From contig JAIOPP010000025.1 in NCBI GenBank assembly GCA_021413845.1, positions 1 through 63,410 on the forward strand: DNA of 63,410 nt. The letters are read 5' to 3'. The DNA is from Planctomycetia bacterium (GTDB taxonomy: Bacteria > Planctomycetota > Planctomycetia > Pirellulales > PNKZ01). The notes under the pieces were generated by a model that was not told the origin of the DNA, ran no database searches, and saw only the letters and a list, made by a program, of their open reading frames with translations. A program made the translations under genes and the position numbers. Numbering within the stretch: position 1 is the stretch's first letter; each line of letters starts with the position of its first letter. Positions 7,884-63,400 of the stretch are shown one piece after another.

Positions 7884-8341
7884 CGAGGTTCGACCGAGGA
7901 AGAACGGGACCGTAGATCGCTAAATGTAGTGCGCTAAATCCGGCTGCGGCCGATAGGGACGCAACGGCCTAACGGAATGCTCCGTCAACGCACGTCAAAC
8001 CTAGCTTAGAAACGTACGTCGGGCGGGCAGGTGTGGAGGTCCGCGGCCGGCGAAAGGCGGCGAGGTACGCCAATGATGCCGAAAGGCAACGTAAACGGCT
8101 GCCGATGCGTCGAAAAGCAGCGATTTTGCCGGCTCTGTTGAGGAAATTCCGTCGAAGTGCGGAAACTTTATCTCGGTTCGCGGCGTCTGATCGTCGGGCG
8201 GCACTCCCGGACCTCGCGCCTCGTCCTTCCGCACGTATCTCCCCGTTCGGCGGCTAGTTACATTGGGCGTTGAGCAACCGAGCTATCTTGTATTGGCCGG
8301 CATCTCTCGTCGTCGTTGAGAAATCATTGAGGAATCCGATC
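7884..8341. promoter_or_regulatory. Divergent intergenic region, 458 bases
   Basis: The region lies between the acyltransferase operon and the giant macroglobulin gene. I see no supported gene or RNA. It holds a GGAAATTCC palindrome (about 8142-8150) and a CGGAAACTTT motif (8160-8169) resembling the iterons at 3487-3540. A TTGAGGA site at 8327-8333 sits about 8 bases before the ATG at 8342 and is its likely ribosome binding site. Confidence 0.4.
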
Positions 8342-11300
8342 ATGCGGTTCTCGCACTCCGTCTTGTTTCATGGCGTGGCTTGCACGGCGTTCCTTTCGTC
8401 TTCCTGGACGTTGCCGACGTCCGTCCTTGGTGCGGATGCACCGGAGACGACCTCGGCTAAGCCGCTCGGGAATAAGGCGGCTGCCGAAAAACTCCCTTGG
8501 GACGACGCCGAACCGATTCCCACGCCGATCGCCGAGCGCTTGCAAAGCCGCGATTATGCCGCAGCGGTGGCGATGCTCGATAAGCTCGCCGCCGAGCCCA
8601 AGGCCCCGCGCGCCCGCTTGCTCTATGCCAAAGGGCGCGCCTGGCATCAGGCCGGCAAGTTCGATGACGCCATCGCGGCGTTCGGAGTCGTCGAGAAGGA
8701 ATTCCCGACCGATGTTTGGGCTCGCCGCGCGCGCTTCGCTCGCGCCGTCGCGCTGGCGAAGAAAGGGGACTTCGCTTCGGCCGAAGTCCTGTATCGGGCC
8801 GAGGCCGAATATCTCCTCTCGCACGAACGAAAGCAGGAACTGGCCGACGTCTATTTAAGCTTCGCCCGCAAGTATGCGAAGCCGCGCGATGAGAAGAGCC
8901 CGGCCGATCAACCGCCCCCCGACTTCGGCAAGGCGTTGCAATTCTTTTCCGCCGCCTTGGAGTTGGGACCGAAGCCGAGCTTGCGCCCGGAAATCGAACT
9001 TCAAATGGCCGATTGCCATCGGCTCTCCGGCAACTTACCCGAAGCCATTACGCGCTACGTGAAGTTCGTCAAAGAACGCCCCAGCGACGAGCGAATCATC
9101 GAGGCCCGATTTCGCTTAGGCGAAGCGCAACTAGCCGCGGGGAATCCTCAAGAGGCGCGGCATGCTTGGCAAGACCTGCTCGCGCTCGTGCCGGCCGATC
9201 GGAAGCCGGCCCGTCCGGAAGACGAAGACTTTCTGGCTCAAGCGGCGTTTCAGATCGGCACCACGTACGGCATGCCGACGCCGGCGAACGACGACGATCT
9301 TGCGCTCGGCACGACGGCGCTCGAGGCGATGATCGAACGCTTCCCCGACCACAAGCTGGCGGGGAAGGCGCGCGTGGCGCTGGTGCGGAGTCGGATCGTG
9401 CGCGGACGCTTCGCCGAAGCGACCGCCGCGGCCGAGTTGTTTCTCAAAGACACGAAGCGCGCCGCTTCGGACGAAGCGGCCGACGTGCGCAATCTGATGG
9501 GGTTTGCGCTCCGGCAACAAAAGAAGTTCGTGGAAGCACTCGCCGCCTGGCGAGATTTTCTGTTGAAGCACCCTTCGGATGCGCAGTGGAGCGCGGTTCA
9601 GCAGCGGATCATCGAAACGGAATACCTGATCGGCTGGGAGGCCTTCGAGAAGAAAGACTACGTCGAAGCGCGTAAGCAATGGAATGAATTTCTCATTCGC
9701 TATCCGCTCGATCCTCGGAGCCCGATGATTCTCTTTCAGTTCGGCCGTGCGGAATACTTAAACGAGAAGTGGGACGCCGCGATCGAGCAATGGCGCAGGC
9801 TCGTCTCGAAGTACCCGGGCCACGAGATTTCGTCGCAAGCGCAAATGCTCATCGGCATCCTCTTCGAAGAGAAGAAACACGACCCGATCATGGCGATGGC
9901 CGAGTTCGTGAAGGTGACGTGGGGCTCGCAGGTCGGCGTCGCCCAAAACCGCATTGCGCAACTCCGAGCCAAGCGCCTTACCGTCGCCACGGAGCGGATT
10001 TTCCGCACGTCGGAAACGCCCTATATTAAGCTCGATTCACGAAATATCGACAAGGTGACGGTGCGTGTCTACACGGTCGATCTGGAAACCTACTTCCGCA
10101 AGATGCACCTCGCGCGCGGCATCGAATCGCTCGATCTAGCGTTGATCGATCCCGATCGGACCTTCGAGTTCACGGTGCCTGAGTACGGCGAGTTCAAGCC
10201 GTGTGAAAGTCGGATCGAGTTGAAGTCGGAAGACTTGGCGAAGGCCGCCGACGCCGCGAAGCCGAGCGTCGTCGCCGTGACGATCGGCAGCAAGACGCTC
10301 GAAGCGACGACGCTCGTGATTCGCAGCGATCTCGACATGATCGTGAAGAGTTCGCGCGACGAGGTCTTCGTGTTTGCCGAAAACATGCTCACCGGCAAGC
10401 CGTGGCAGGGGGCGAGAGTTCTCGTTTCCAACGGCACTGAAGTGGTCGCCGAAGGAACGACGGCCGCGGACGGCACGTTCCGTGGCTCCTACAAGCAACT
10501 CCACAATGCGAAAGATGTGCGCGTCTTCGCCGCGTCGGACGGCAACACGGCGTCGAATGTCGTGTCGCTCAGCGGTGTCGGCGTCGGGCAAGGATTGCAA
10601 GAGCGAGGCTTTCTCTATACCGACCGAGGCGGCTATCAGCCGGGACAAGTCGTGCATGTGCGCGGCATTCTGCGCGGCACCGCCGACGATCGTTACGTCG
10701 TGCTGCCGAAGAAAAAGTACCGCTTCGAGACCTACGATGCGCGCAATCGATTGATTCACGGGGCGGAAGTCGTCACGGGGGACTTCGGCACGTTTCACAC
10801 CTACTTCACGCTCCCGTCGATCGCCGCTCCGGGCGACTATCGAATTCAAGTGTGCGATATCGACGGGCGCGCCTTTCAAGGGAGCTTCCGAGTCGAAAAT
10901 TACGCACTCGAACCGGTGCGGTTGTCGATCGATTTGCCGCGCAAAGTTTATTTCCGCGGCGAAGAAATCACCGGCACGATCAAAGCCGAGTATTACTACG
11001 GCACGCCTCTCGCCGGGCGAGAGATTCGCTACACGTTCGGCGACGGGCGAGTCGAATCGGCCCTGACGGATGCCCAGGGGAAAGTTGCGGTGAAGTACCC
11101 GACGCGCGAGCTGCGCGAACATCAAACGCTGACCCTCTCCGCACAATTGCCGGAACGCAACCTCGGCGCCTCGGCCGATTTGCTGATCGCGGTGCGGGCG
11201 TTTTCCGCCGCGATCAAGCTCCCTCGCGACGTCCTGACGACCGGGGAATCGTTTGCGGTCGACGTCTCGACGAGCTCGGCCGACGGGAAACCGACCGGCG

Positions 11301-14300
11301 AAAAGCTCACGCTCAAAGTCTTCGAGAAGACCACGGTCGAAGGGAAGCCGGGAGAGCGCGAAGTGCGCACGCTGGACGTCGCCACGGACGCGAAGACGGG
11401 CATCGCTCGCGTCACGCTTACGCTCGAACAAGCCGCTTCGTATGCGCTGCGCGTCGAAGGACGCGATCGCTTCAGCAATCCGGTCACGGCGAGCCGCGAC
11501 ATTCTCGTCTCCGGCGATGAAGACACCGTGCGGCTCCGGATTCTGGCCGACGAGCATTACTACAAAGCCGGCGACGAGGCGAAGTTCCGCGTCCATTGGC
11601 GCGAAGCGCCGGCCTTGGCTTTGGTGACGTTTCAAGGAGTGAAGATTCTCGACTACCGGCTCGTGCAATTGAAGACCGGAGACAACATTCTCGAACTGCC
11701 GTTGTCGGAACGCTTCGCGCCGAACTTTCAGTTGGAAGTGAACGTGATGACCGACGTACGCGACACGGCGAAGGCCGACTTGGTCGACGCGAAGGGGAGG
11801 CAGGAAGTCGCGAAAAAGAAAACGCGGTTGCACGTGGCGACGAACGAATTCTACGTCGATCGGGCACTCACGGTGAAGGTCGAGACCAAGCGCAAGGCCG
11901 GGGCGACCGGTCCGATTGCGCCGGGAGAAACCGTCGACGTGACGGTGAGCACCTTGGACGGGCAAGGGAAGCCGGTCGCTGCGGAAGTCGGTCTGGCGCT
12001 GATCGATCGGATGAACTTCGACCGCTTCGTCGGCAATCGGTCGTCGTTCGGCAAGTTCTTCAACGGCGTGCCGCGCACCGCTGCGATGCGGACGACGTCG
12101 AGCATCGAGTTCGATTATCGCCCCGCGACGGCGTCGATCAACGCGCGGCTCCTGTCGGAACAAGAACGCCTCGAGATTGCCGAACAAGAAAAAGACTTAC
12201 GGACCTCGTTGGCAACCGCTTCGCAGTCCGGTGGAATGGGCGGCGGTGGTGGCGGCGTCATGGCTCAACAGAACGCTCAAGCTGCGGAATCGGATGGCCT
12301 CTTTCAAAACGGCGTGAACCTCGGCAGTGTGGTGCAGCAGGATAATATCCAGAACTTTGCGTTTTACGTCGGGCGCGAGGACGAAGCACGGATGGCCGGA
12401 GTCGGCGTGAACTCGAATGCGGGAATGTATCAAGGACAGACGACGATCGTCGCCGGCACGGCCGTCAACAGCCCGGCTCCTGCTGCCGCACCTTACGCGA
12501 AGCCGATGGAAGCGAAGCGAAAGCAGCTCCAGCCGCAATCGGACGCAAAAGGAAACGCTCTCAATCGCGAGAGCGCCGCTAAGGCGGACGTAGATCGGAG
12601 TGGCGCGTTCGATCAACCGATCTCGGCTCTCGCGACCGAACTCTTTTTCGACGGTTCCCAACTGCAAGATCGCGAGATCACGGTGCTCAACGGCGGAGTG
12701 TTGTCGAACCTCGATCGGGCCGTATTGAGCAACGATGCGCAGAAGAAAGAACTCTTCGAGAGTCTGAAGCGGCAAGGGGCGCTGCTGCTTCTCAGCGACG
12801 GCTTGCAAGAGACGGCCTATTGGAACCCCGCGATCACGACCGATGCCACGGGTAAGGCCGTGATTACGATCACCCTGCCTGAGCGCTCGACGGCTTGGAA
12901 GTTGCTCGCGCAAGGTGTGACGATGGATACGCGCGTCGGCGATGCCGAGAGCGAGTTGATCGTGAAGAGCGAGTTGTTCGGTGAGTTTGCGCTGCCGAAT
13001 ATCGTGACCGATGGAGATAAGCTGGATGTCGTCGCGACGATCCACGACGATCGGGCCCGCACGGCCGATCAACCGCAGCCGGCGATCGAAGTCACGCTCA
13101 AGACCGTGATCGGCGGCAAGAGTACGGAAGAAAAGCGAACGCTGGAAGCCGGCCCCGGCGGCACGGCGACTCTCCGCGAACTTTCGTTTCCGATCGCGAT
13201 CGACTTGCCGAAACCCGCTGCGGCCAAGGAAGCCGGCGAGAACAAAAAAGGGAGCGCCGACTCTCCGTTGCCGACGACGGCGGAGGTGACCTTGTCGCTT
13301 ACTTCCGGTGGGCAACGCCACCAGGTGAGCCGCAACGTTCCGATTCGTCCGTATGGTTTTCCCGTCGTCGCAGTCGACGGAGGAACCACGACCACCGGGA
13401 CGACGGTTTGGATCGAGCAACCCGCCGACATGACGATCGAACGCCCGCGATTGGAGGTCGTCGTCGGCCCGAACGTCGACCGGAGCTTGTTGGAGATCGT
13501 GCTCGGCGGTCGGCGCTGGTGCGACTTGCACGAACGCTACGCGACGCCGCTGGAAACATCGTCGAGCGATCTGCTGGCCGGTGTGGCGTTGCAAAAAATG
13601 CTGAATACGACGCGCGACAAAGGGACGCCCGAAGCCGCCGAGCTCGACGCCCGCATTCGTTCCGCTTGCGGCTACTTGGCTTCGGCGCAGAACGACGACG
13701 GCGGTTGGAGTTGGTCGGGTGCCGGCGGCAACAGCAATCGCTATGCTTCGGCCCGCGTCGTGTGGGCTCTGAGCGTTGCGAAGGCCGGCGGCTACGCCTT
13801 CGCGCAAGAGACGTTCGACAAAGGAATTAATTATCTCGCGGCGCAGCAAGCGGCCGTCGCCGATGACGACCTTGAAGGCAAAGCCGTGGTGCTCCATGCA
13901 CTGGCCGAAGCAGGGCGGGGCGATTTCGCCGTCGCGAATCGGTTGTTCCGAAGTCGAGGAACGATGGCTCAAGCGGGCATCGCCTACTTGGCGCTGGCGC
14001 TCGCGAAGATGGACCATGTGCCGATGGCGGCCGACCTGCTCACGACGTTCCAAGGACGCGAGCCGGTGGCTGTTCCAGCCGCCGCTCCTGCTGCCGCCGG
14101 CGCCGCGAAGCAAATCGACGCTAGTGGGCTCTCTACTGCACGGAGCGGAGCGACGGAAGTTCGAGCCCTCTACGCGCTCGCGCTGTTGCGATCGGGCATC
14201 GACGTCGCGAAGCAAAAGGAAGCGGTCGATTGGCTGCTCTCGCATCGCGCCGGCAATCGTTGGTCGCCGGAGAAGGCGACCGGTCCGGCTGCGGCGGTGT

Positions 14301-16813
14301 TGGCCGAGTGGTTCGCGAAGCATCGTCCCGGGGGCGAACGGTATAAGCTCGCCGTCGTCGTCAACAACTACGAAGCGGCGAATCTGGAGATCGATCCGAA
14401 CGGCCCGATGCAGACGATCGAGATCGACGCCAAGCATCTCGTCGCCGGCAAACAGAGGATTCAACTCCTCATGACGGGCCGGGGGCACTTGGCCTATCAA
14501 TGCGTGCTCGGCGGATTCGTCGCTGCCGAGAAGATCAAGCCGACGGCCCGCCAGTTCTACGTGCATCGCTATTGGGAACCGGCGCCGGTCGAATTCGAAG
14601 GCAAAGAATTGCCTCGCGGCTTCGACGTTGCGAGCGGCAACATTACGTCGTTCCGCAATCCGCTCACGCAATTGCCGATCGGCCGCCGCGGGCGAATTCA
14701 GATTCAAGTGGCTCGGCACTTCCCGAAGGGAAATCCGCCGGACGACCAGCTGGAATATCTCGTCGTGCGCGAGCCGATCCCCGCCGGTTGCTCGGTCGTC
14801 GAGCAATCGATCAAGGGGGGCTTCGAGCGCTACGAATCGTTGCCGGGCGAGTTGGTGTTTTACGTCGGCAATCGTCGCTATCCCGAGACGATTTCGTACG
14901 AGATCGTGGGGACGAGCGCCGGCGATTTCCGCACCGCGCCGACCATCGTCGCCGATGCATATCGTCCGGAAGATTTCAACATCGCCACCGGAGCGCCGCT
15001 CAAGGTCTTGGCGCGCGGACGAACGTCGATCGACACTTATCGCTGGAGCCCCGACGAGTTGTATGCTCTGGGAAAACGAAACTTCGAGAAGCGAGATTGG
15101 GAAACGGCGCGCAAACATCTCTTGGAGCTTACCGCCGGCTGGTCGCTCGATCCGGAGCCGTATCTCGATTCGTTGAAGATGCTGCTCGACGTCCATCTCG
15201 AGCTCGCTCGTCCGGCCGAGATCGTGAAGTACTTCGAGTTGGTTAAAGAGAAGTCGCCGAACATGGAGATTTCGTTCGACAAGATTCTCAAGGTCGGCGC
15301 GGCCTATCATACCCTCGGCGAATACGAACGGAGCTATCTGGTGTTCCGCGCCACGGTCGAAAGCAGCTTCGCTCGCGATGCGGCGGTCGCCGGCTTCTTA
15401 GACGCGCAGGGAGAATTCTTGCGCAGCGTCGACGTTATGCGCCGGCTACTCGGCGAGTACCCGCCGGAACCGTATGCGGCGGCGGCCGAGTATGCGCTGG
15501 CGCAGCAAGTGTACGGCTACGCTCCACGCGTTGCGGGCGATGCGAAACTGCGTGAACGGAAGCTCACGCGGCTGGCGCTGGTCGCTGCGGGCGAACGGAT
15601 GCTCGACAACTTCCTGACGGCCCATCCCGACGATCCGGCGGCCGATCAAGCGGCTTTCGCCGATGCGAACGCGCTGTTGGAAATGGAACAATACGACCGC
15701 GCCGTGGCGAAGTGTCTCGCGTTCGTCGAGCGCTACCCGAAGAGCGAGTTCGTGGATAGCTACTGGTATGTCGTCGGCTATAGCCACTTCGCGGCCGGCC
15801 GGCCGGAAGCGGCGCTCGAGATCTGTCGCAAGGTCGCCGAGATGAAGCACGTCGACCCGAGCGGACGCGAAACGGAGAGCCGGAACAAGCAGCGGGCGAT
15901 CTACATTCTCGGCCAAGTTTATCACAGCCTCGGCAAAGCGGCCGAAGCGATCCGGGAATACACGCGCGTCGCCGACCAGATTCCCGACGCGAAGCTCGCG
16001 ATCGATTACTTCGCGCATCGCACCATCTCGCTGCCCGAGGTGACGACGATTCGTCCGCAAGATCCGGCGAAGGTGGTGCTTAAGTTCCGCAACGTGCCGA
16101 AGTGCGAGGTGAAAGCGTATCGGATCGACTTGATGAAGTTCAGCCTGCTGCGGCAAAACCTCAGCGCGATCACGCAGATCAATCTGTCGGGCATCCGTCC
16201 GTTGCACGAAGCGACGATCGAACTCGGCGACGGCAAAGACTACCGAGACCGCGAGCATGCCTTGCTCTTGCCGATCCAGGAAGAGGGGGCTTACCTCGTC
16301 GTATGCCGCGGCGACAACTTGCACGCCAGCGGCTTCGTGCTGATCAGCCCGCTTAAGGTCGAGGTGCAGGAAGAAGCGGGGAGCGGGGAAGTGCGCGCGA
16401 CGGTGAAGAACGTGGCCGACGATAAGTTCGTGTCCGACATTCACGTCAAGATCATCGGCTCACGCGACGGCGAGTTCAAAGCCGGCGAGACCGATTTACG
16501 CGGCGTGTTCGCGGCGGAGCCGATCTCAGGACATTCGACCGTGATCGCGCAGGCGGGAACGAATCGCTACGCGTTCTATCGCGGCGAGGTCGATCTGTTG
16601 CCGCGTCCGGTGCCGAACGCCCCCCCTACGACTGCGCCGCAGCAGCAACAGCAGCGCCAGGCCGCTCCCGGCAAGAAAGCGGCTGGCAAGGAGTATCTGC
16701 TCGAAGAATTGCAACGAGGCAATAACATGAACCAGCAGATCCAAATCGACAACTTGCGCAACAACTACTACAACAACCGCGACAACGGGGTGCGCGCGAA
16801 GGCGGCGTTCTGA
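8342..16813 (+). CDS. Giant alpha-2-macroglobulin-like protein with flanking TPRs
   Basis: 2823 residues from ATG 8342, which has GAGGA upstream and starts a 33-residue signal peptide; an in-frame TTG at 8270 gives a less likely start. Order: TPR/Sel-like helical repeats (about 50-540); MG1/MG2-type Ig-like domains (about 550-1270, with GFLYTDRGGYQPGQ); a Gly/Gln/Asn-rich bait-like stretch (about 1290-1420); the A2M domain (YWNPAITTDATG, about 1490); the alpha-helical thioester-type domain (about 1720-2040, NDDGGWSWSG); a receptor-binding-like MG domain; more TPRs (about 2230-2550); a final Ig-like part; and a Gln/Asn-rich tail. Where thioester homologues have CxEQ this protein has PLET (1736-1739), so it cannot form the thioester. 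Probably a periplasmic protease trap or scaffold. Its stop lies 6 bases from the convergent MOSC gene. Confidence 0.85.
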   Translation: MRFSHSVLFHGVACTAFLSSSWTLPTSVLGADAPETTSAKPLGNKAAAEKLPWDDAEPIPTPIAERLQSRDYAAAVAMLDKLAAEPKAPRARLLYAKGRAWHQAGKFDDAIAAFGVVEKEFPTDVWARRARFARAVALAKKGDFASAEVLYRAEAEYLLSHERKQELADVYLSFARKYAKPRDEKSPADQPPPDFGKALQFFSAALELGPKPSLRPEIELQMADCHRLSGNLPEAITRYVKFVKERPSDERIIEARFRLGEAQLAAGNPQEARHAWQDLLALVPADRKPARPEDEDFLAQAAFQIGTTYGMPTPANDDDLALGTTALEAMIERFPDHKLAGKARVALVRSRIVRGRFAEATAAAELFLKDTKRAASDEAADVRNLMGFALRQQKKFVEALAAWRDFLLKHPSDAQWSAVQQRIIETEYLIGWEAFEKKDYVEARKQWNEFLIRYPLDPRSPMILFQFGRAEYLNEKWDAAIEQWRRLVSKYPGHEISSQAQMLIGILFEEKKHDPIMAMAEFVKVTWGSQVGVAQNRIAQLRAKRLTVATERIFRTSETPYIKLDSRNIDKVTVRVYTVDLETYFRKMHLARGIESLDLALIDPDRTFEFTVPEYGEFKPCESRIELKSEDLAKAADAAKPSVVAVTIGSKTLEATTLVIRSDLDMIVKSSRDEVFVFAENMLTGKPWQGARVLVSNGTEVVAEGTTAADGTFRGSYKQLHNAKDVRVFAASDGNTASNVVSLSGVGVGQGLQERGFLYTDRGGYQPGQVVHVRGILRGTADDRYVVLPKKKYRFETYDARNRLIHGAEVVTGDFGTFHTYFTLPSIAAPGDYRIQVCDIDGRAFQGSFRVENYALEPVRLSIDLPRKVYFRGEEITGTIKAEYYYGTPLAGREIRYTFGDGRVESALTDAQGKVAVKYPTRELREHQTLTLSAQLPERNLGASADLLIAVRAFSAAIKLPRDVLTTGESFAVDVSTSSADGKPTGEKLTLKVFEKTTVEGKPGEREVRTLDVATDAKTGIARVTLTLEQAASYALRVEGRDRFSNPVTASRDILVSGDEDTVRLRILADEHYYKAGDEAKFRVHWREAPALALVTFQGVKILDYRLVQLKTGDNILELPLSERFAPNFQLEVNVMTDVRDTAKADLVDAKGRQEVAKKKTRLHVATNEFYVDRALTVKVETKRKAGATGPIAPGETVDVTVSTLDGQGKPVAAEVGLALIDRMNFDRFVGNRSSFGKFFNGVPRTAAMRTTSSIEFDYRPATASINARLLSEQERLEIAEQEKDLRTSLATASQSGGMGGGGGGVMAQQNAQAAESDGLFQNGVNLGSVVQQDNIQNFAFYVGREDEARMAGVGVNSNAGMYQGQTTIVAGTAVNSPAPAAAPYAKPMEAKRKQLQPQSDAKGNALNRESAAKADVDRSGAFDQPISALATELFFDGSQLQDREITVLNGGVLSNLDRAVLSNDAQKKELFESLKRQGALLLLSDGLQETAYWNPAITTDATGKAVITITLPERSTAWKLLAQGVTMDTRVGDAESELIVKSELFGEFALPNIVTDGDKLDVVATIHDDRARTADQPQPAIEVTLKTVIGGKSTEEKRTLEAGPGGTATLRELSFPIAIDLPKPAAAKEAGENKKGSADSPLPTTAEVTLSLTSGGQRHQVSRNVPIRPYGFPVVAVDGGTTTTGTTVWIEQPADMTIERPRLEVVVGPNVDRSLLEIVLGGRRWCDLHERYATPLETSSSDLLAGVALQKMLNTTRDKGTPEAAELDARIRSACGYLASAQNDDGGWSWSGAGGNSNRYASARVVWALSVAKAGGYAFAQETFDKGINYLAAQQAAVADDDLEGKAVVLHALAEAGRGDFAVANRLFRSRGTMAQAGIAYLALALAKMDHVPMAADLLTTFQGREPVAVPAAAPAAAGAAKQIDASGLSTARSGATEVRALYALALLRSGIDVAKQKEAVDWLLSHRAGNRWSPEKATGPAAAVLAEWFAKHRPGGERYKLAVVVNNYEAANLEIDPNGPMQTIEIDAKHLVAGKQRIQLLMTGRGHLAYQCVLGGFVAAEKIKPTARQFYVHRYWEPAPVEFEGKELPRGFDVASGNITSFRNPLTQLPIGRRGRIQIQVARHFPKGNPPDDQLEYLVVREPIPAGCSVVEQSIKGGFERYESLPGELVFYVGNRRYPETISYEIVGTSAGDFRTAPTIVADAYRPEDFNIATGAPLKVLARGRTSIDTYRWSPDELYALGKRNFEKRDWETARKHLLELTAGWSLDPEPYLDSLKMLLDVHLELARPAEIVKYFELVKEKSPNMEISFDKILKVGAAYHTLGEYERSYLVFRATVESSFARDAAVAGFLDAQGEFLRSVDVMRRLLGEYPPEPYAAAAEYALAQQVYGYAPRVAGDAKLRERKLTRLALVAAGERMLDNFLTAHPDDPAADQAAFADANALLEMEQYDRAVAKCLAFVERYPKSEFVDSYWYVVGYSHFAAGRPEAALEICRKVAEMKHVDPSGRETESRNKQRAIYILGQVYHSLGKAAEAIREYTRVADQIPDAKLAIDYFAHRTISLPEVTTIRPQDPAKVVLKFRNVPKCEVKAYRIDLMKFSLLRQNLSAITQINLSGIRPLHEATIELGDGKDYRDREHALLLPIQEEGAYLVVCRGDNLHASGFVLISPLKVEVQEEAGSGEVRATVKNVADDKFVSDIHVKIIGSRDGEFKAGETDLRGVFAAEPISGHSTVIAQAGTNRYAFYRGEVDLLPRPVPNAPPTTAPQQQQQRQAAPGKKAAGKEYLLEELQRGNNMNQQIQIDNLRNNYYNNRDNGVRAKAAF

Positions 16814-56298: not shown

Positions 56299-57321
56299 AT
56301 GAACCGCTCTCCCCTTATTCGCACCGTTTACGTTACCGGCGGAGGGGGGTATGTCGGCGCGGTTCTGATTCCGAAGCTGCTCGCGGCGGGCTACCACGTG
56401 CGCTGCCTCGATCTATTCTTATACGGTGAAGACGTCTTCCCGACGGTCGCGCGCCAGGCATCGCTCGAACTCATCCGCGGCGACCTGCGCGATCAAGCCT
56501 TGCTCCGTCGCACGCTCGCCGGCTCCGACGCGGTCATCCATCTAGCGTGCATCTCAAACGATCCGAGCTTCGAGCTCGACCCGGCCCTCGGCAAGAGCAT
56601 CAACTACGATAGTTTTCGGCCGCTGGTCGAGCTGTCGCGCGCGGCCGGTGTGCGGCGTTTCATCTACGCGTCGAGTTCGAGCGTCTACGGAGTTAAGCAA
56701 GAAGCGAACGTCACGGAAGAGCTCGCGCTCGAACCGCTGACCGACTACTCGCGCTTCAAGGCAGCTTGCGAAGCGATTCTCGCGGAGTATCAAGCGCCCG
56801 ACTTTACGACCGTCACGCTCCGGCCCGCGACCGTGTGCGGCTACTCTCCGCGACTTCGGCTCGATCTCAGCGTTAACATTCTCACCAACCACGCCTACTC
56901 CAACGGCCGCATTCGGGTCTTCGGCGGCAATCAATATCGCCCGAACATCCATATCGACGACGTTACCGATCTCTACGTTCGCCTGCTCACGCTCGATGCC
57001 GAGTTGGTGGCCGGCCGAACGTGGAACGCCGGCTACGAAAACCAAACGATCAACGATATCGCGGCGCATGTGCGCGAGGTCGTCGTGCGCGAGCCGGGGC
57101 ATGAGCTAGTCGCGATCGCACACGAACCGACCGACGATCAGCGGAGCTACCGCATCTCGTCCGAAAAGATTCGTCGCGACATCGGGTTCGTGCCGAAGCA
57201 TTCGATCGCCGAGGCCGCCGCCGACTTAGTCGCCGCGTTTCGTGCCGGTAAGGTTCCGAATCCGATGCACGACCCGAAGTATTACAACATCAAAACGATG
57301 CAGGCGCTGAGTCTGCGATGA
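56299..57321 (+). CDS. NAD-dependent epimerase/dehydratase, extended SDR (first of six-gene cluster)
   Basis: 340 residues from ATG 56299; the frame is open 96 bases further but without a start that suits. NAD-binding TGGGGYVG at 13-20, IRGDLRD, and the catalytic Ser region SSSSVYG with Y150xxxK154. Later RPATVCGYSPRLRLDLSVNIL resembles UDP-/GDP-sugar epimerases such as nucleoside-diphosphate-sugar 4-epimerases or reductases. The product is cytosolic and acts on a nucleotide-linked sugar by analogy. Its TGA overlaps the next ATG (ATGA at 57318-57321). Confidence 0.88.
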   Translation: MNRSPLIRTVYVTGGGGYVGAVLIPKLLAAGYHVRCLDLFLYGEDVFPTVARQASLELIRGDLRDQALLRRTLAGSDAVIHLACISNDPSFELDPALGKSINYDSFRPLVELSRAAGVRRFIYASSSSVYGVKQEANVTEELALEPLTDYSRFKAACEAILAEYQAPDFTTVTLRPATVCGYSPRLRLDLSVNILTNHAYSNGRIRVFGGNQYRPNIHIDDVTDLYVRLLTLDAELVAGRTWNAGYENQTINDIAAHVREVVVREPGHELVAIAHEPTDDQRSYRISSEKIRRDIGFVPKHSIAEAAADLVAAFRAGKVPNPMHDPKYYNIKTMQALSLR

Positions 57322-58202
57322 ACATGCCCGACCCAGGCGAACGGTTGCGCGAGATTGCTGCTGCGGCCCGAAAGGTCCGGGGCCAAGTCGTGCAAATGTC
57401 GCATCGCAGCGGCGCGGCGCATCTCGGCTCGTCGTTGTCGTGCGTCGATCTGTTGCTCGCCGCGTATGCGTGGGGAGTGCGAGTCGATCCTCGTCGGCCG
57501 GATGCTCCGGAGCGCGATCGGCTGATTCTCAGCAAAGGGCACGCAGCCTCGGCGCTCTACGCGGTCGCGGCGGAAGTCGGCTTCTTCGACGAAGAACTGT
57601 TGCAGACGTTCGGCACTCCTGGCGGTCGGCTTCCCGAACAGCCTGCGCCGCGCTGCTTGCCCGGCATCGAAGCGGCGACCGGATCGCTCGGCCACGGGCT
57701 TTCGCTCGGCGTCGGCATGGCGCTCGCGTCTCGGATTCAACAGCTCGGCTTTCGAGTCGTGGTCATTATGAGTGACGGAGAATGCAACGAGGGTTCGGTG
57801 TGGGAAGCGGCGATGTTCGCGGCCGGGCAAGGCATAGACAACCTCACCGTGCTCGTCGACTACAACAAATGGCAAGCGACCGGCCGCTCGAACGAAGTGA
57901 TGGCGCTCGCTCCCTTGGCGAAGAAGTTCGAAGCGTTCGGCTGGTCGGCGACGGAAGTCGACGGCCACGACTTCGCAGCCCTGCGCACGCAGCTCACGGC
58001 ACATCCTCAAACGCTCGGCAAACCGACGGCGCTAGTTTGCCATACGATCAAGGGCAAGGGAGTGTCGTTCATGGAAGACGACAACAACTGGCATTATCGC
58101 GTGCCGACCGCCGGCGAAACCGAACGGGCATGGCAAGAGCTTGGGCTTGATCTTCGCGAATTGACATCGGACAGCCGCTTGCCCGAGGTGCGTCCCTCGT
58201 GA
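57318..58202 (+). CDS. Transketolase N-terminal half (ThDP-binding subunit)
   Basis: 294 residues, coupled to the epimerase upstream. The thiamine diphosphate/metal motif is MSDGECNEGS with DYN following (D153, N183). HRSGAAHLGSSLS and LSKGHAASALYAV at the front and TGSLGHGLSLGVGMA in the middle are transketolase signatures. It is only the N-terminal third to half of a full transketolase; the C-terminal half is the next gene, overlapping by GTGA. Split transketolases of this kind occur in secondary sugar pathways as well as in central metabolism. Here the surrounding genes suggest the former. Confidence 0.93.
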   Translation: MNMPDPGERLREIAAAARKVRGQVVQMSHRSGAAHLGSSLSCVDLLLAAYAWGVRVDPRRPDAPERDRLILSKGHAASALYAVAAEVGFFDEELLQTFGTPGGRLPEQPAPRCLPGIEAATGSLGHGLSLGVGMALASRIQQLGFRVVVIMSDGECNEGSVWEAAMFAAGQGIDNLTVLVDYNKWQATGRSNEVMALAPLAKKFEAFGWSATEVDGHDFAALRTQLTAHPQTLGKPTALVCHTIKGKGVSFMEDDNNWHYRVPTAGETERAWQELGLDLRELTSDSRLPEVRPS

Positions 58203-59128
58203 GAAACGCCTTTGCCGACGAACTGTTGACACTCGCCGAACGAGACGATCGGATCGTCTTCCTTTCGGGCGACATCGGCAACCGACTGTTCGACAAATTC
58301 AAAGCCCGATTTCCGGAGCGGTTCTTCAACTGCGGAGTCGCGGAGCAAAACATGATCGGCATGGGAGCCGGCATGGCGCTCTCCGGCTTGCGCCCGATCT
58401 GTTACACGATCGCATCTTTCGCCACAGTCCGTTGTTTGGAGCAAATTCGAGTCGACGTTTGCTACCACGACCTCCCGGTCACGATCGTCGGCGTCGGTGC
58501 CGGGCTCGGCTATGCAGAGCTCGGGGCTACGCATCACGCTTGCGAAGACATCGCCATGCTCCGTTCGCTGCCGAACATGGCCGTGGTTTGTCCAGGCGAT
58601 CCGCTGGAAGTGCGCGGCGCGTTGGCGGCAGCCGTGCGTCGATCGGGCCCCGTTTATCTGCGATTGGGCAAGAAGGGGGAGCCGATCGTGCATGCGACGC
58701 GGCCGGATTTGGAAATCGGAAAAGCGATCCCGGTGCGGACCGGCCGGCACGTTGCGCTGCTCGTCACCGGAACGCTGCTGCCGACCGTCGTCGAAGTCGG
58801 CAAGCGATTGGCCGAGCAAAACATCGAGGCCTCGATCTTTAGCTTTCACACTGTCAAGCCGCTCGACGAAGAACTGCTCGCGTCCCTCTTCGCCGAGTTC
58901 CCTCTCGTAGCGACGATCGAAGAACACAGCCTCGTCGGAGGTTTCGGCGGCGCCGTTGCGGAATGGATTGCGGATCGACCGCCGCGACGAGCGCGTCTTC
59001 TCCGCTTCGGCACACGCGACGAATTCCTGCATGTCGCGGCCGACGAAGAATACGCTCGCCGCCATTTCGGGCTCGATGCCGAAAGCATCGCGGCGCGCGT
59101 CGTGGCGGAACTCAAAGCATCTTCGTAG
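58199..59128 (+). CDS. Transketolase C-terminal half
   Basis: 309 residues from GTG 58199. Pyrimidine-binding domain with the catalytic Glu in NCGVAEQNMIGMGAGMA (E49), a YTIASFATVRCLEQIRVDV helix, GAGLGYAELGATHHACEDIAML, and the C-terminal domain (ALLVTGTLLPTVVEVGKRL). It pairs with the preceding subunit to form the active site at their interface. Together they would transfer a two-carbon unit between a ketose and an aldose in the cytosol. Confidence 0.93.
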   Translation: MRNAFADELLTLAERDDRIVFLSGDIGNRLFDKFKARFPERFFNCGVAEQNMIGMGAGMALSGLRPICYTIASFATVRCLEQIRVDVCYHDLPVTIVGVGAGLGYAELGATHHACEDIAMLRSLPNMAVVCPGDPLEVRGALAAAVRRSGPVYLRLGKKGEPIVHATRPDLEIGKAIPVRTGRHVALLVTGTLLPTVVEVGKRLAEQNIEASIFSFHTVKPLDEELLASLFAEFPLVATIEEHSLVGGFGGAVAEWIADRPPRRARLLRFGTRDEFLHVAADEEYARRHFGLDAESIAARVVAELKASS

Positions 59129-59180
59129 ACTGAGGCTCGCCCAAGCAAGACGTCGCGGCATTCGAGAGCACCATCTATCT

Positions 59181-60233
59181 ATGAAAACGCTTGCCGCCGT
59201 GTTGGTCGAACTCGGCCGACCGCTGGAACTCGCCGATCTTGAAGTTCCTTTGCTCGCGCCGGGGCAAGTGCTGGTGCAAGTCGCATTCAGCGGCGTCTGC
59301 GCCACGCAACTCGGTGAAGCGCGCGGCCTGCGCGGACCGAACGCCTATCTTCCCCATTGCCTCGGCCATGAGGCCGGCGGAACCGTCGTTGAAGTGGGCC
59401 CCGCCGTGACGAAAGTCCGTGTCGGTAATCGCGTCATCCTCTCTTGGATGAAGGGCTCCGGCATCGATGTGCCCGGCACCACTTATCGCTGGGGCGACCG
59501 AACCGTCAACGCCGGCGGAGTGACGACCTTTGCCACCTACACCGTCGTCGCGGAGAATCGATTGACTCCTATCGATGCTGCGTTTCCGCTACGCGAAGCG
59601 GCGCTACTAGGCTGCGCCGCGCCGACCGGCCTCGGCGCGGTGTTCAATACCGCCGCTGCGGAGCGCGGCGCAAGCGTCGTCGTCTTCGGCACCGGCGGCA
59701 TCGGGCTGTGCGCCGTCGCCGCCGCCCGCATCGCCGGGCTTGGTCCGATCGTGGCAGTCGACCCGAGCGCCGATCGGTTGCAGGCCGCCGAACGGATGGG
59801 GGCCACGCAACGGATCAACCCGCGCGAACTCGGCGACGACGTCGACATCGCCGCGGCGCTGAAGAAGATCGCGCCGCAAGGGTTCGACTACGCGATCGAA
59901 GCGAGCGGTGTGCCCGACGTCATGTCGCAGGCTTTGGCGGCCGTGCGCAATCGGGGCGGCACGGCGGTGCTCGTCGGCAACGCACCGCACGGGCGCAAAC
60001 TCGAAATCGATCCGAAGCAGTTCAACTTGGGAAAGCGATTGCTTGGCACCTGGGGAGGCGACAACGTGCCCGATCGCGACTTTCCTCGCTATTGCGAAAT
60101 GGTCGGCGACGGTCGCTTGTCGCTTGCGCCGTTGATGGAGCATGAATACGCGCTGACGGACGTCAACCGCGCGCTCGAAGACTTGGAACGGGGAACGGTC
60201 GTGCGCCCGTTGTTGAATATGGCCGTGGCTTAG
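59181..60233 (+). CDS. Zinc-type medium-chain dehydrogenase lacking the structural-zinc lobe
   Basis: 350 residues from ATG 59181, 52 bases after the transketolase. Catalytic zinc ligands are C40 (FSGVCATQLGEARG), H63 with E64 (LGHEAGG) and C145 (LGCAAPTGLGAV). The coenzyme loop is FGTGGIGLCAV (169-179). The four-Cys structural-zinc lobe normally at about residues 90-110 is absent; this region is WMKGSGIDVPGTTYRWGDRT with no Cys. It likely oxidises or reduces a polyol or sugar alcohol with NAD(P). Its TAG overlaps the GTG of an alternative start for the next gene. Confidence 0.9.
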   Translation: MKTLAAVLVELGRPLELADLEVPLLAPGQVLVQVAFSGVCATQLGEARGLRGPNAYLPHCLGHEAGGTVVEVGPAVTKVRVGNRVILSWMKGSGIDVPGTTYRWGDRTVNAGGVTTFATYTVVAENRLTPIDAAFPLREAALLGCAAPTGLGAVFNTAAAERGASVVVFGTGGIGLCAVAAARIAGLGPIVAVDPSADRLQAAERMGATQRINPRELGDDVDIAAALKKIAPQGFDYAIEASGVPDVMSQALAAVRNRGGTAVLVGNAPHGRKLEIDPKQFNLGKRLLGTWGGDNVPDRDFPRYCEMVGDGRLSLAPLMEHEYALTDVNRALEDLERGTVVRPLLNMAVA

Positions 60234-60241
60234 TGGTCGCC

Positions 60242-61933
60242 ATGCTGATCGGAATCGATTTTGACAACACGCTCGTCTGCTACGATCGCCTGTTCCATGC
60301 GCTCGCGCTGGAGCGCGCGTGGATCCCGGCCGACTTGCCGGCAGCGAAGACGAGCGTACGCGATTACCTTCGCTCCGTCGGGCGCGAAGACGACTGGACC
60401 GAACTGCAAGGGCTCGCGTATGGGCCCGAGATTCAGCGGGCCGAATTGTTTCCTGGCGTTCTCGATTTCTTCCGTGAAGCCCATCGTCGCGGCATCGCAA
60501 CGATCGTCGTCAGCCACAAGACTCGACACGCACTTCGTGGGCCGAAACACAATCTGCATGCGAGCGCATTAGAGTTCTTAAAGCGCCAAGGCTTCTTCGA
60601 CACCGCGATCGGCCTCACCGAGGCGCACGTATTTCTCGAGCCGACCAAAGTCGACAAGCTCGCGAGAATTGCGACGGTAGGCTGCACGCACTTCATCGAC
60701 GACCTGCCGGAGTTTCTCGCTGAGCCCGACTTTCCGGCAAACGTGCGAAAGATTTTGTTCGATCCGCAACGAGCATTTTCAGCCGTTCCGCATCGTACGA
60801 CGATTCACTCATGGCGCGATGCAGTCGGGCTTTTGATCGACGAATATGCCCCATCGCTTGAACTGGCACCCGAGCCCTTGCCCGATGCCGTGGCAAGGCT
60901 ATTGCTAGGGGCCGAAATACCGAACGCCGGCTATTCGCTCACCCGTATCGCCGGCGGGCGCAACAATCGAGCCTATCTGCTGACAACCTCCGACGGACGG
61001 CGCTGCTTGGTTAAATGGTACTTTCGCCACCGCGAAGACGCGCGCGACCGGCTCGGAGCGGAATATCGATTCGTCGGGTATTGTCGACGCTTCGGAATCG
61101 ACAAAGCCCCGAAGCCGCTTGCGCACGACGACGACGCACGGCTCGGGCTCTATGAATTCATCGACGGCAAGAAACTCACGCCGGCCGAAATCGCCGAGCG
61201 CCACGTATCGCAAGCGATCGAGTTCGTCGTTCAGCTTCAAGCCCACCGCAACACTCCGGAAGCACGCGCTCTGCCCACGGCTTCCGAGGCCTGCTTCAGC
61301 GTCGAAGAGCATCGCCTTTGCATCGACAATCGCGTTCGTGCCTTGCAGCGCGTGGCACCGGAGCACGACGCATTGCAAAAGTTCGTGCTCGATCGGCTTC
61401 TCCCGGCGTGGGAACAAATCGATCGAGGCATCTGCGAGACCGTTCGACAACGGCCTGAGATCCATTCCGCGCCGCTTACCGACGCCGACCACTGTTTATC
61501 GCCGTCCGACTTCGGGTTTCACAACGCGCTACAAACGGCTGACGGCTCGCTCCGATTCTTCGATTTCGAATACGCCGGTTGGGACGACCCGGCGAAGTTG
61601 CTGTGCGATTTCTTTTGCCAAGTCGAAGTGCCCGTGCCGCTCCGCTTTGCAACCTCGTTCGCCGCGCGATTGGCCGCACAGCAGCTCGACCCGGAAGCGT
61701 TTCTCGCGCGGGCCGAATTGCTGTTTCCGGCGTATCGGATCAAATGGTGCTGTATCGTGCTAAACGAGTTCTTGTCGTCGGGCTCAGCGCGACGCTCGTT
61801 CACCTCAGGCATACCGGTCGCCGACGACCGGCTCGGCACGCAACTCACACTCGCCACGCAGATGCTCGACCGGCTCGCTACGGATCACGATCCACACGTT
61901 TTTCGCTCGTCTTCCATCGGCAGCACGTCATGA
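60242..61933 (+). CDS. HAD phosphatase/APH-type kinase fusion
   Basis: 563 residues from ATG 60242 (GTG 60233, overlapping the previous stop, is an alternative). Residues 1-200 are a HAD hydrolase: nucleophile D6 and acid/base D8 in GIDFDNT, motif II S91 (VVSHKT), Lys137 or 140, and D154-D155 (HFIDDLPEF). Residues 230-560 form an aminoglycoside-phosphotransferase/choline-kinase-like domain: Gly-loop AGGRNNRAYLL, K259, catalytic SPSDFGFHN with D424 and N429, and metal-binding D442 in FFDFEYAGWDDP. The usual HxD is SxD here. Both halves keep their catalytic residues, so one polypeptide may phosphorylate one site and dephosphorylate another. Coupled to the next gene by ATGA (61930-61933). Confidence 0.88.
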   Translation: MLIGIDFDNTLVCYDRLFHALALERAWIPADLPAAKTSVRDYLRSVGREDDWTELQGLAYGPEIQRAELFPGVLDFFREAHRRGIATIVVSHKTRHALRGPKHNLHASALEFLKRQGFFDTAIGLTEAHVFLEPTKVDKLARIATVGCTHFIDDLPEFLAEPDFPANVRKILFDPQRAFSAVPHRTTIHSWRDAVGLLIDEYAPSLELAPEPLPDAVARLLLGAEIPNAGYSLTRIAGGRNNRAYLLTTSDGRRCLVKWYFRHREDARDRLGAEYRFVGYCRRFGIDKAPKPLAHDDDARLGLYEFIDGKKLTPAEIAERHVSQAIEFVVQLQAHRNTPEARALPTASEACFSVEEHRLCIDNRVRALQRVAPEHDALQKFVLDRLLPAWEQIDRGICETVRQRPEIHSAPLTDADHCLSPSDFGFHNALQTADGSLRFFDFEYAGWDDPAKLLCDFFCQVEVPVPLRFATSFAARLAAQQLDPEAFLARAELLFPAYRIKWCCIVLNEFLSSGSARRSFTSGIPVADDRLGTQLTLATQMLDRLATDHDPHVFRSSSIGSTS

Positions 61934-62922
61934 AAACAGTCGTCGTTCTCGGGTCGAATTCATTCTCCGGCCAAGACTTTGTCGATCTCCTGCTGGATGA
62001 TCCGGAATACGACGTCATCGGGGTGAGTCGCAGGCCGGAGCCGGCGGCGTGGAAGCTCAAGTATCGTTCGCACGCCGCGGTCGCACGATTTCGCTTCTTC
62101 GCGCTCGACATGAATCGCGACATGCCGGAATTGCTGACGCTGCTCGACCGAGAACGGCCCCGCTACATCGTCAACTTCGCGGCCCAAAGCGAAGTCGCGC
62201 CGAGTTGGGAACGGCCGGAGCATTGGTTTCAGACGAACACCGTCGCGCTCGCCGAACTCGTCAACCATCTTCGCCGGCAAACGTATCTCGACAAATACGT
62301 TCATATTTCGTCGCCCGAGGTGTACGGCACTTGCCGCGGCAACGTCACGGAACAAGCGCCGCTGAACCCGAGCACTCCGTACGCGGCGTCGAAAGCCGCG
62401 GCCGATATGCTGCTCGCCGTTTATCGCAAGCAATACGGATTCCCGGTGACGACGGTGCGTGCGACGAACGTTTACGGCGCGCGGCAGCAGTTGTTCAAGA
62501 TCGTTCTCCGCTCGATCATCTCGATGAAGCTCGACAAGAAGATTTCGCTTCATGGGGGAGGGCGGGCCGTGAAGTCGTATATCCACGTGCGCGACGTTTC
62601 GCGCGGCGAGCTTGCGATCATGCAGCACGGCGAGCTCGGCGAGATCTATCATCTCTCGCCCGACGAAGGAATCGCCGTCTGCGACCTCGTGCGAGAGCTA
62701 GTCTTCCTGCTCGATAAGAACTTCGCCGAGGTGACGCAAGCCGTCGACGAGCGGCCGGGCCAGGATGCCGCTTATGTGATCGATTCGTCGCTCGCGCGAT
62801 CGCGCTTCGCTTGGCGACCGCGCATCGAACTACGCCAAGGCCTGGAAGAGGCGATCACCTGGGTCGACCGATATTGGAACGAAATCCAAACGGCTCCGCT
62901 CGACTACGAGCATCTCGCATAG
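61930..62922 (+). CDS. NAD-dependent epimerase/dehydratase (last of six-gene cluster)
   Basis: 330 residues from ATG 61930, coupled to the fusion gene; upstream in-frame sequence shadows it and is ignored. Nucleotide motif LGSNSFSGQ (7-15), S128 in ISSPEVYGT, and catalytic Y151xxxK155. ATNVYGARQQLFKIVLR and GGRAVKSYIHVRDVSRGELAIM are typical of dTDP-glucose 4,6-dehydratase/GDP-mannose 4,6-dehydratase-like enzymes. Probably the nucleotide-sugar-modifying step of the pathway. It is followed by the convergent stress-protein gene. Confidence 0.9.
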   Translation: MKTVVVLGSNSFSGQDFVDLLLDDPEYDVIGVSRRPEPAAWKLKYRSHAAVARFRFFALDMNRDMPELLTLLDRERPRYIVNFAAQSEVAPSWERPEHWFQTNTVALAELVNHLRRQTYLDKYVHISSPEVYGTCRGNVTEQAPLNPSTPYAASKAAADMLLAVYRKQYGFPVTTVRATNVYGARQQLFKIVLRSIISMKLDKKISLHGGGRAVKSYIHVRDVSRGELAIMQHGELGEIYHLSPDEGIAVCDLVRELVFLLDKNFAEVTQAVDERPGQDAAYVIDSSLARSRFAWRPRIELRQGLEEAITWVDRYWNEIQTAPLDYEHLA

Positions 62923-62944: not shown

Positions 62945-63400
62945 TTATGCCGCGATGAGATCGTCGACCTTCACGGTCAGCACCGGGCAGGGAGCGTTCC
63001 GCACGATCGACTCGGCGATGCTCCCCATGATGAACTGCGCGAAAGCGCTCCGGCTCGAATTTCCGAGCACGATCAAATCAATCTTGCGGCTGCGCGCATA
63101 TTCCATGATCGCTTCGTAGGCGCTTTCGCGCACGACTTGATATTCGACATGCAATCGGTTCCGATCTTCGGCGCTTAACAGCCCCTTCAAGCGATCCAGC
63201 GATGCCCCTTCGACTTGCTCGCGAATGCCGTCGAGATCGACTGCGGTGAGCATCGGCGAGTCGCTCGTGAAGTCTTCCACGGCGTGCAAGATGTGGAGCG
63301 TGGCACCGGATTCCGCCGCGACCTGCTTGGCATATTCCAAAGCAGCGCCGGCCGATTCGGAATAGTTCGTCGGAACCAGGATGTTTCGTGCTGGAACCAT
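62945..63400 (-). CDS. Universal stress protein (UspA family)
   Basis: 151 residues; ATG 63400. The first strand/loop is NILVPTNYSESAGAAL, and the C-terminal NAPCPVLTV and MGSIAESIV match the family. The ATP-binding G2xG9xGS pattern is present except that the second Gly is Ser (GNSSRS). It may therefore belong to the non-ATP-binding branch or bind poorly. Members are cytosolic and induced by growth arrest. Complete in the window, with only 10 bases upstream. Confidence 0.9.
   Translation of the reverse strand: MVPARNILVPTNYSESAGAALEYAKQVAAESGATLHILHAVEDFTSDSPMLTAVDLDGIREQVEGASLDRLKGLLSAEDRNRLHVEYQVVRESAYEAIMEYARSRKIDLIVLGNSSRSAFAQFIMGSIAESIVRNAPCPVLTVKVDDLIAA

Follow-up and report, generated by a model that had tools for sequence, protein, structure and literature searches.

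Gene content and layout of the cluster

The window, a stretch of 63,410 nt from a Planctomycetia bacterium (GCA_021413845.1, contig JAIOPP010000025.1, positions 1–63,410 of the forward strand), carries six intact, co-directional genes on its forward strand in the order SDR1–TKN–TKC–ADH–HAD-APH–SDR2, in which HAD-APH is one fusion gene. SDR1 (56299–57321, start ATG) encodes an extended SDR of the NAD-dependent epimerase/dehydrogenase type (Pfam Epimerase, 131 bits). TKN (57318–58202) encodes the N-terminal, ThDP-binding half of a split transketolase (Pfam Transketolase_N, 118 bits) and TKC (58199–59128, start GTG) its C-terminal half, with the pyrimidine and C domains (Pfam Transket_pyr, 139.8 bits; Transketolase_C, 66.7 bits). 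These are followed by ADH (59181–60233, start ATG), a zinc-type (MDR) dehydrogenase (Pfam ADH_N and ADH_zinc_N); HAD-APH (from GTG at 60233 or ATG at 60242 to 61933), in which a HAD phosphatase domain is fused to an APH-fold kinase domain; and SDR2 (61930–62922), an NDP-sugar 4,6-dehydratase-like SDR with (S/T)-P-E and Y-x-x-x-K/R motifs. The intact frames, the Pfam assignments and the recurrence of the order elsewhere bear out the preliminary description of this locus as a real six-gene cluster.

That description had counted overlaps at four of the five junctions. Three are certain, each of 4 bases (SDR1/TKN, TKN/TKC and HAD-APH/SDR2); the fourth, ADH/HAD-APH, depends on the start codon: the GTG at 60233 gives a 1-base overlap, the ATG at 60242, at which the conserved domain begins, an 8-base gap. 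The remaining junction, TKC/ADH, has the 52-base gap (59129–59180) reported there. On the reverse strand behind SDR2 lie a universal stress protein gene (62945–63400; Pfam Usp, 111 bits), which is not thought to be part of the pathway, and, past the window end, the inverted gene of an MT5 methyltransferase (C25:63643 to about 64305; family checked, frame open), at most about 0.8 kb from SDR2.

Distribution and recurring neighbours

A scan with the window’s HAD-APH protein found 127 relatives, the best 80 of which were kept as a set of loci; 40 of these have wide flanks. The complete seven-domain order SDR1–TKN–TKC–ADH–HAD–APH–SDR2 recurs in 10 of the best 80 loci, labelled as six phyla (the labels come from the records, for the most part metagenome-assembled genomes in which mis-binning is possible), the same order minus SDR2 in 17, and TKN–TKC–HAD–APH are adjacent in 31. 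Because the same order is found in 10 of 80 loci, it is not a product of chance, and it is not unique to this assembly, a possibility that the preliminary description had raised against itself. Bacteria of many unrelated lineages, and a small number of archaea, thus share the cassette; a divergent variant lies on a plasmid of the cultured carrier Solidesulfovibrio carbinolicus DSM 3852.

The neighbourhood extends beyond the six genes. All 10 full-order loci have an HldE-like gene and 9 have MT5, the tenth (L044) being ended by its contig soon after SDR2. Among the 40 wide loci, TKN and TKC are each present in 38, ADH in 37, MT5 in 36, SDR1 in 35, an HldE-like kinase/nucleotidyltransferase in 34, SDR2 in 33 and a GmhA-like gene in 14. 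A GmhB-like gene occurs in 9 of the best 80 loci and also in the two same-genus carriers described below. Thus, the six genes are a conserved cluster, as first described, but an incomplete view of a larger set that adds the HldE-like gene, MT5 and sometimes GmhA- and GmhB-like genes.

The split transketolase

Transketolase_N lies on one chain and Transket_pyr with Transketolase_C on the next, the layout of split transketolases, and the nearest solved relatives of both halves (6yak for TKN, 6yaj for TKC) come from the two-subunit enzyme of Carboxydothermus hydrogenoformans, from which the pair here differs in being tied to a sugar-nucleotide cassette. The ThDP/substrate histidines H35, H75 and H126 of TKN are invariant in 58 of 58 relatives, together with D153 and N183; in TKC, the catalytic Glu49 is kept in 63 of 64 relatives (one gap), and His112, Arg155 and Lys158 in all 64.

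The phylogenetic check raised in the preliminary description, of the transketolase halves against central ones, places the TKN core in a clade of its own. In a quick tree of the N half, 59 core TKN rows fall on one side of a branch (SH-aLRT 100), apart from eight full-length central transketolases, each above the TIGR00232 cut-off. A quick tree of the C half sets the core apart solely from DXS and from other split pairs; its nine comparison rows comprise DXS (L118, L126, L127 and L128), a PDH E1 beta (L131), a one-chain transketolase of split-like type (L135), L136 (no hit at the cut used), L129 and L132. As the core rows were labelled by profile score, the one-clade result is partly circular in both trees, and the TKC rows of L014 and G052 are identical and therefore near-copies. 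Among 57 related genomes, four carry the cassette, and each of them encodes a full-length central transketolase (above the NCBIfam cut-off) as well; the split pair thus comes on top of it.

Dehydrogenases and the HAD-APH fusion

Among solved structures, SDR1 best matches 6vo6 (132 bits, against 101 for the next), which we take to be Cj1427, the C4-dehydrogenase of GDP-heptose. The portion of PMC10680097 that bears on Cj1427 likewise gives it this activity. SDR1, with GGxGYxG and YxxxK invariant in 32 relatives, is an extended SDR closest to Cj1427 among solved structures, with a putative role in C4 oxidation of an NDP-heptose. The SDR matches all stay below curated equivalog cut-offs, and SDR2 has no equivalog-level match to a known 4,6-dehydratase (TIGR01181, 194.8 bits, cut-off 365.1); its Y151, P129 and E130 are invariant in 43 relatives, and position 155 is K in 22 and R in 21. 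ADH keeps its catalytic zinc ligands: C40, H63 and E64 are invariant in 63 relatives, and the third ligand is C in 44 and D in 19.

In the fusion protein (numbered from the ATG at 60242), HAD spans about residues 1–195 and APH about 209–557, and the AF2 model has a pLDDT of 92.4. The HAD half scores 25.2 bits in Pfam, just under the cut-off of 27; its predicted fold backs the identity, matching HADs of the 5′(3′)-deoxyribonucleotidase type (Z = 16.5). We rejected HAD as a GmhB (HisB-type) phosphatase on the basis of this fold and of the separate GmhB-like gene in some loci; the fold alone would permit the activity. The APH half (Pfam, 45.1 bits, cut-off 23.2) has a predicted APH/choline-kinase fold and resembles, among others, the anomeric sugar 1-kinase NahK (Z = 21.0), homoserine kinase (20.6) and choline kinase (20.0), matches within 1 Z unit being treated as tied; Foldseek’s own order places corramycin phosphotransferase and choline kinases first. 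The catalytic D...N and DxE motifs are present, with D228, N233 and D246 in 82 of 82 relatives and E248 in 81 of 82. Across the cluster, the active-site motifs that were initially read as intact are present and conserved in relatives.

These enzymes would also fit a branched-chain product, in which the transketolase adds a two-carbon hydroxyacetyl unit to the keto group of an NDP-sugar made by SDR1 or SDR2, ADH reduces the side-chain ketone and MT5 methylates. SDRs able to make 4-keto sugars are present, ADH and a methyltransferase adjoin the pair, and two-subunit ThDP enzymes occur in branched-sugar antibiotic pathways. We regard this as improbable: Arg155 and Lys158, kept in all 64 TKC relatives, are presumably phosphate-binding residues of the kind that goes with phosphorylated substrates; transketolases do not usually take ketones as acceptors; and the HAD and APH domains would be left unexplained.

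Heptose-type partners

In the HldE-like proteins, the matches to domains I and II of HldE/RfaE, below the NCBIfam equivalog cut-offs, stand in swapped order: the nucleotidyltransferase comes first, and the kinase is of the PfkB type, its nearest solved relative being a heptose 7-phosphate kinase. In this genome, the HldE-like gene lies on contig C92, with an open frame and 53.7% identity to its best match among relatives. The GmhA-like matches also fall below the curated equivalog cut-off; the candidate here, an SIS protein encoded on contig C128, shows 36% identity and has gmhA as its best model (101.6 bits, cut-off 209.45). Two GmhB-like proteins that were tested have GmhB as their best NCBIfam match, below the cut-off, and this genome has two candidate matches (43% and 38%).

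An HldE-like partner, sometimes joined by GmhA- or GmhB-like ones, points to heptose-type chemistry. The cyclitol or polyol product entertained in the preliminary description is therefore set aside: the recurring partners are heptose-type rather than inositol-type, and the match of ADH to the scyllo-inosose dehydrogenase model is weak (123.9 bits, cut-off 450).

Heptose-type partners would also suit a more modest role, in which the transketolase does no more than replenish sedoheptulose 7-phosphate for an otherwise ordinary NDP-heptose pathway and nothing longer or branched is made. Sedoheptulose 7-phosphate is the substrate of GmhA in the relevant portion of PMC10680097, GmhA-, HldE- and GmhB-like genes recur, and the nearest solved relatives of TKN and TKC are genuine split transketolases. 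This supply would, however, be redundant with the full-length transketolase in all four carriers, and it makes superfluous the HAD and APH kinase domains that travel with the pair in 31 of the best 80 loci. Moreover, a GmhA-like gene was not seen in 26 of the 40 wide loci. We consider this role unlikely.

Related genomes

Among the 57 related genomes, HAD-APH occurs in 4 (three of them in one genus), the same 4 have TKC matches of at least 55% identity, and HldE-like matches at E ≤ 1e-80 are found in 7, including all 4 carriers. In two carriers of the same genus (G001 and G003), HAD and APH are separate genes, ADH is 42–43% identical, and the set adjoins polysaccharide-export-ABC-like and glycosyltransferase genes. 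An RmlA-type nucleotidyltransferase gene is also nearby in both, so either its product or the HldE-like protein may activate the sugar.

In two further genomes (G010 and G028), HldE-like, SDR1, SDR2 and MT5-like genes are present (ADH too, seen in G010) and a HAD-APH match is absent; the transketolase, HAD and APH may therefore be a separate module. On such a reading, TKN, TKC, HAD and APH would form one pathway and the HldE-like protein, SDR1, SDR2, ADH and MT5 another, the two supplying different building blocks of one glycan, and loci L019 and L081, which have HAD-APH without a transketolase in reach, agree with it. Yet in the order seen in the window ADH separates TKC from HAD, and SDR2 comes after APH; the two modules would thus be interleaved in tightly spaced genes, and we think a division of this kind improbable.

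The cassette in this genome lies away from any glycosyltransferase gene seen here. This distance, the HldE-like gene on another contig and the inverted MT5 behind the Usp gene could mark a stranded, non-functional remnant; we judge this very improbable, given that the six frames and the checked active sites are intact, MT5 has an open frame no farther than about 0.8 kb from SDR2, and the HldE-like gene is open and well matched among relatives.

A proposed pathway and its relation to known systems

On balance, we think it likely that a conserved pathway, of which the six genes form the greater part, leads to a nucleotide-activated sugar, heptose-derived or longer, of a surface glycan. From the gene families and their neighbours we infer its substrates, order of steps and product. 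The split transketolase would make or extend a ketose phosphate, which the GmhA-like isomerase, when present, would convert to an aldose phosphate; the HAD and APH domains would take one phosphate off and put another on; the HldE-like protein would phosphorylate C1 and attach the nucleotide; SDR1 would oxidise the activated sugar, probably at C4; and SDR2, ADH and MT5 may then complete it by dehydration or epimerisation, reduction or oxidation, and methylation. As a GmhA-like gene is near only 14 of the 40 wide loci, these data do not make sedoheptulose 7-phosphate a general point of entry. More tentatively, the cassette may represent an undescribed route: a split transketolase dedicated to it would build a chain of at least eight carbons (or a branch), HAD-APH would shift the position of the phosphate, and the product would serve surface glycans in DPANN archaea and in many phyla of bacteria. 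If so, many environmental bacteria and some DPANN archaea would encode the synthesis of a surface sugar of which we found no account, and transketolase would be added to transaldolase among the chain builders of activated higher sugars. The roughly nine proteins of the cassette, their active sites conserved, form a defined set that could be co-expressed to find the product, and the genes can serve as a genomic marker of a sugar perhaps overlooked in glycan analysis.

The preliminary description knew of no pathway with exactly this set, and we found none in the literature searched, the coverage of which excludes most subscription journals; together with the recurrence of the order in other phyla, this supports its view that the cluster is conserved and serves an unusual activated sugar. 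Bacterial NDP-heptose pathways (GmhA, HldE, GmhB and HldD) resemble the cassette in the GmhA-, GmhB- and HldE-like genes that recur around it, and differ from it in HldE domain order and in family scores, which here stay below equivalog cut-offs; the cassette adds the transketolase pair, ADH, HAD-APH, two further SDRs and a methyltransferase. Isomerase and kinase roles are also part of the lincosamine GDP-octose pathway. There, according to the pertinent portions of PMC12945683 and PMC5854111, a ketose-phosphate chain builder, the transaldolase LmbR, is followed by a phosphatase, a nucleotidyltransferase and GDP-octose tailoring, an overall logic from chain builder to NDP-sugar tailoring that the cassette would share. 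In place of an LmbR-type transaldolase, the six-gene cluster has a transketolase by Pfam assignment, and the split pair would be its chain builder. The modification of GDP-heptose in Campylobacter jejuni by Cj1427 and its partners (PMC10680097, in part) is similar in that an activated heptose is modified and that Cj1427 is nearest to SDR1; the word transketolase is absent from the main text of that paper, and the cassette’s kinase is, by contrast, of the PfkB type and fused to a nucleotidyltransferase.

Base composition and mobile elements

The GC content of the cluster (0.620) is close to that of the preceding 16 kb (0.614) and thus gives no sign of recent foreign DNA. Despite this match, G001 and G003 of the same genus hold a rearranged, less similar version, and a third same-genus genome (G002) has no HAD-APH match. 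We rejected a phage origin, as the HAD-APH protein matched none of 50,697 phage records; among 72,556 plasmid records, one matched.

Gene cluster and conservation of its order

The six genes described previously as a coupled cluster for an unusual activated sugar or polyol are present on the forward strand of the window: SDR1 (56299–57321), the split transketolase halves TKN (57318–58202) and TKC (58199–59128), the zinc-type dehydrogenase ADH (59181–60233), the phosphatase–kinase fusion HAD-APH (starting at GTG 60233 or ATG 60242 and ending at 61933) and SDR2 (61930–62922). The 52-base gap between TKC and ADH stands, as do three of the four reported overlaps, each of 4 bases. The fourth, between ADH and HAD-APH, hinges on the start codon: GTG 60233 gives a 1-base overlap and ATG 60242, the better match to where the conserved domain begins, gives an 8-base gap. 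The gene names agree with Pfam; the HAD match is slightly below the Pfam cut-off, yet is backed by fold prediction. Pfam also identifies a DUF885 gene upstream and a universal stress protein (Usp) gene downstream on the opposite strand, both of which look unrelated to the cluster. PSCyt domains in the window fit a planctomycete origin. Elsewhere in the window, 8270–16813 encodes a protein of 2847 amino acids that carries TPR repeats together with alpha-2-macroglobulin domains of the bacterial type.

A scan of genome contigs with the HAD-APH protein recovered 127 relatives, the best 80 of which were retained as loci (L008–L087); per-gene profiles were made from these 80 and searched against the same loci. 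The preliminary description had proposed looking for the gene order in other phyla. The exact order SDR1-TKN-TKC-ADH-HAD-APH-SDR2 recurs in 10 of the best 80 of 127 loci (L013, L039, L042, L044, L047, L052, L056, L060, L064 and L084), with titles that name six phyla (Elusimicrobia, Armatimonadetes, Margulisiibacteriota, Planctomycetota, Verrucomicrobia and Nitrospira), and in 17 of these 80 if SDR2 is not required. HAD and APH are adjacent in 74 pairs in this set, and 22 form a single fused frame. A divergent, plasmid-borne version (L108; NZ_CP026539.1, Solidesulfovibrio carbinolicus plasmid pDCAR1) has HAD, APH, two transketolase pairs, HldE-like and GmhA-like genes amid pse, radical SAM and MptE-like genes.

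Recurrent partners

Among 40 wide loci (flanks of over 7 kb upstream and over 5 kb downstream), we found TKN and TKC in 38 each, ADH in 37, SDR1 in 35 and SDR2 in 33. Two further families recur as regularly as the six cluster genes: MT5, a small SAM-dependent methyltransferase (36/40), and an HldE-like protein (34/40), in which a cytidylyltransferase-like domain precedes a PfkB kinase, the reverse of the domain order of HldE. GmhA-like SIS proteins occur in 14/40 wide loci, and a GmhB-like HAD in 9 of the best 80 of 127 loci and in both same-genus carriers; the two GmhB-like proteins checked matched GmhB models best, with scores under the cut-off.

In this genome, MT5 lies inverted behind the Usp gene, just beyond the window end (C25:63643 to about 64305, reverse strand; L125:3643–4305). 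The HldE-like gene adjoins a PMT_2-type gene on contig C92 (L109:11304–13010), and a GmhA-like candidate is on contig C128. Also beyond the window, L125:4755–5540 encodes a small Cys-rich protein, which we take to resemble an exported copper-storage (Csp) four-helix protein.

Active sites and structural relatives

Active-site positions, which we presume to be catalytic from family knowledge, are nearly invariant among relatives. They include H35, H75, H126, D153 and N183 of TKN (58/58); E49 (63/64, one gap) and H112, R155 and K158 (64/64) of TKC; C40, H63 and E64 of ADH (63/63); D6 and D8 (80/81, one gap) and D153 and D154 (81/81) of HAD; D228, N233 and D246 of APH (82/82); Y150 and K154 of SDR1 (32/32); and Y151 and E130 of SDR2 (43/43). 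The HAD motif-III lysine is looser (60 K, 14 R, 6 L and 1 I), the third ADH zinc ligand varies (44 C and 19 D), and K155 of the SDR2 YxxxK motif is replaced by R in 21/43 (for example, L012, L016 and L065). These SDR2 and ADH signatures go with gene order: the 10 loci of window-type order have YxxxK and the Cys ligand, and the eight loci ordered SDR2-SDR1-HldE-ADH-TKN-TKC have YxxxR and Asp.

The predicted HAD-APH model is confident (mean pLDDT of 92.4). Its APH half resembles kinases of the APH fold; N-acetylhexosamine 1-kinase scores Z 21.0 (310 aligned, rmsd 3.5), and homoserine and choline kinases tie with it. Its HAD half resembles phosphatases of the 5'(3')-deoxyribonucleotidase type (Z 16.5, 155 aligned, rmsd 2.4). 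The solved relatives are 6vo6, which we take to be Cj1427, for SDR1 (132 bits); the split transketolase 6yak/6yaj for TKN and TKC; and, for the HldE-like protein, a heptose 7-phosphate kinase for the kinase domain (51.7 bits) and a putative cytidylyltransferase for the other domain (53.9 bits).

Transketolase phylogeny

Comparison of the transketolase halves with central enzymes was also proposed in the preliminary description; for the N halves it separates the two groups. In a quick N-half tree of 89 rows, one branch sets off the 59 core rows (SH-aLRT 100), another sets off eight full-length central transketolases (SH-aLRT 100) and 22 other split or split-like rows lie in between; the core grouping is partly circular because core rows were labelled by profile score. 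All eight central rows exceed the TIGR00232 cut-off; one each comes from this genome, G001, G003 and G052, and these carriers therefore also possess an ordinary transketolase. The C-half tree unites 65 core rows (SH-aLRT 99), and its supposed central rows turned out to be mainly DXS. The window TKC is nearest L056 (67% identity), mostly among rows with the same gene order; the same-genus carriers G001 and G003 fall elsewhere within the core clade. A second split transketolase pair of this genome (contig C84, L110:8830–11736) adjoins APH/fructosamine-kinase-like and sulfotransferase genes.

Co-occurrence and surroundings

Among 57 genomes (this genome and relatives), HAD-APH and TKC matches of at least 55% identity occur in the same four: this genome, G001, G003 and G052. 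The HldE-like protein (E ≤ 1e-80) occurs in seven, including all four HAD-APH carriers; such overlap would arise by chance in 35 of 395,010 ways (~9e-5) if genomes were independent, and the carriers are not, as three are of one genus. MT5 (E ≤ 1e-30) and SDR2 (E ≤ 1e-60) each occur in six: the four carriers, G010 and G028. One module can exist without HAD-APH, because in G010 (L116) and G028 (L117) the HldE-like gene adjoins SDR1 in a stretch without transketolase or HAD-APH. Conversely, L019 and L081 have HAD-APH and no transketolase within reach of the locus. Such cases speak against one rigid pathway.

The genes HldE-like, SDR1, TKN, TKC, HAD, APH, MT5, ADH and SDR2 are contiguous in G003; a group-1 glycosyltransferase gene borders one end of the set, and polysaccharide-export-ABC-like genes border the opposite end. 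The G001 set is divided between two contigs, the second of which holds glycosyltransferase-like and export-permease-like genes; the export matches in both genomes and the G001 glycosyltransferase match are under NCBIfam cut-offs.

Proposed pathway

Every cassette enzyme falls in a known superfamily. The preliminary description knew of no pathway with exactly this set; our literature search likewise found no description of the gene set, and its results contained none of the gene combination, the swapped HldE-like protein or the HAD-APH partner. We regard the cassette as a probable activated higher-sugar pathway. Its product is best read as a nucleotide-activated, heptose-derived or longer sugar, which would serve a surface glycan. 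The HldE-, GmhA- and GmhB-like partners and the Cj1427-like SDR point to heptose chemistry; one study describes oxidation of GDP-heptose at C4 by Cj1427 and a Campylobacter jejuni route that begins at sedoheptulose 7-phosphate (PMC10680097). That the extra transketolase is mostly accompanied by a phosphatase and a kinase suggests an unusual ketose phosphate with a moved phosphate: the transketolase would form the ketose phosphate from presumed substrates, and its phosphate would then be relocated. An RmlA-type sugar-1-phosphate nucleotidyltransferase near the cassette in G001 (L115:6849–7607) and G003 (L111:13034–13792) is a possible second candidate for the activating enzyme.
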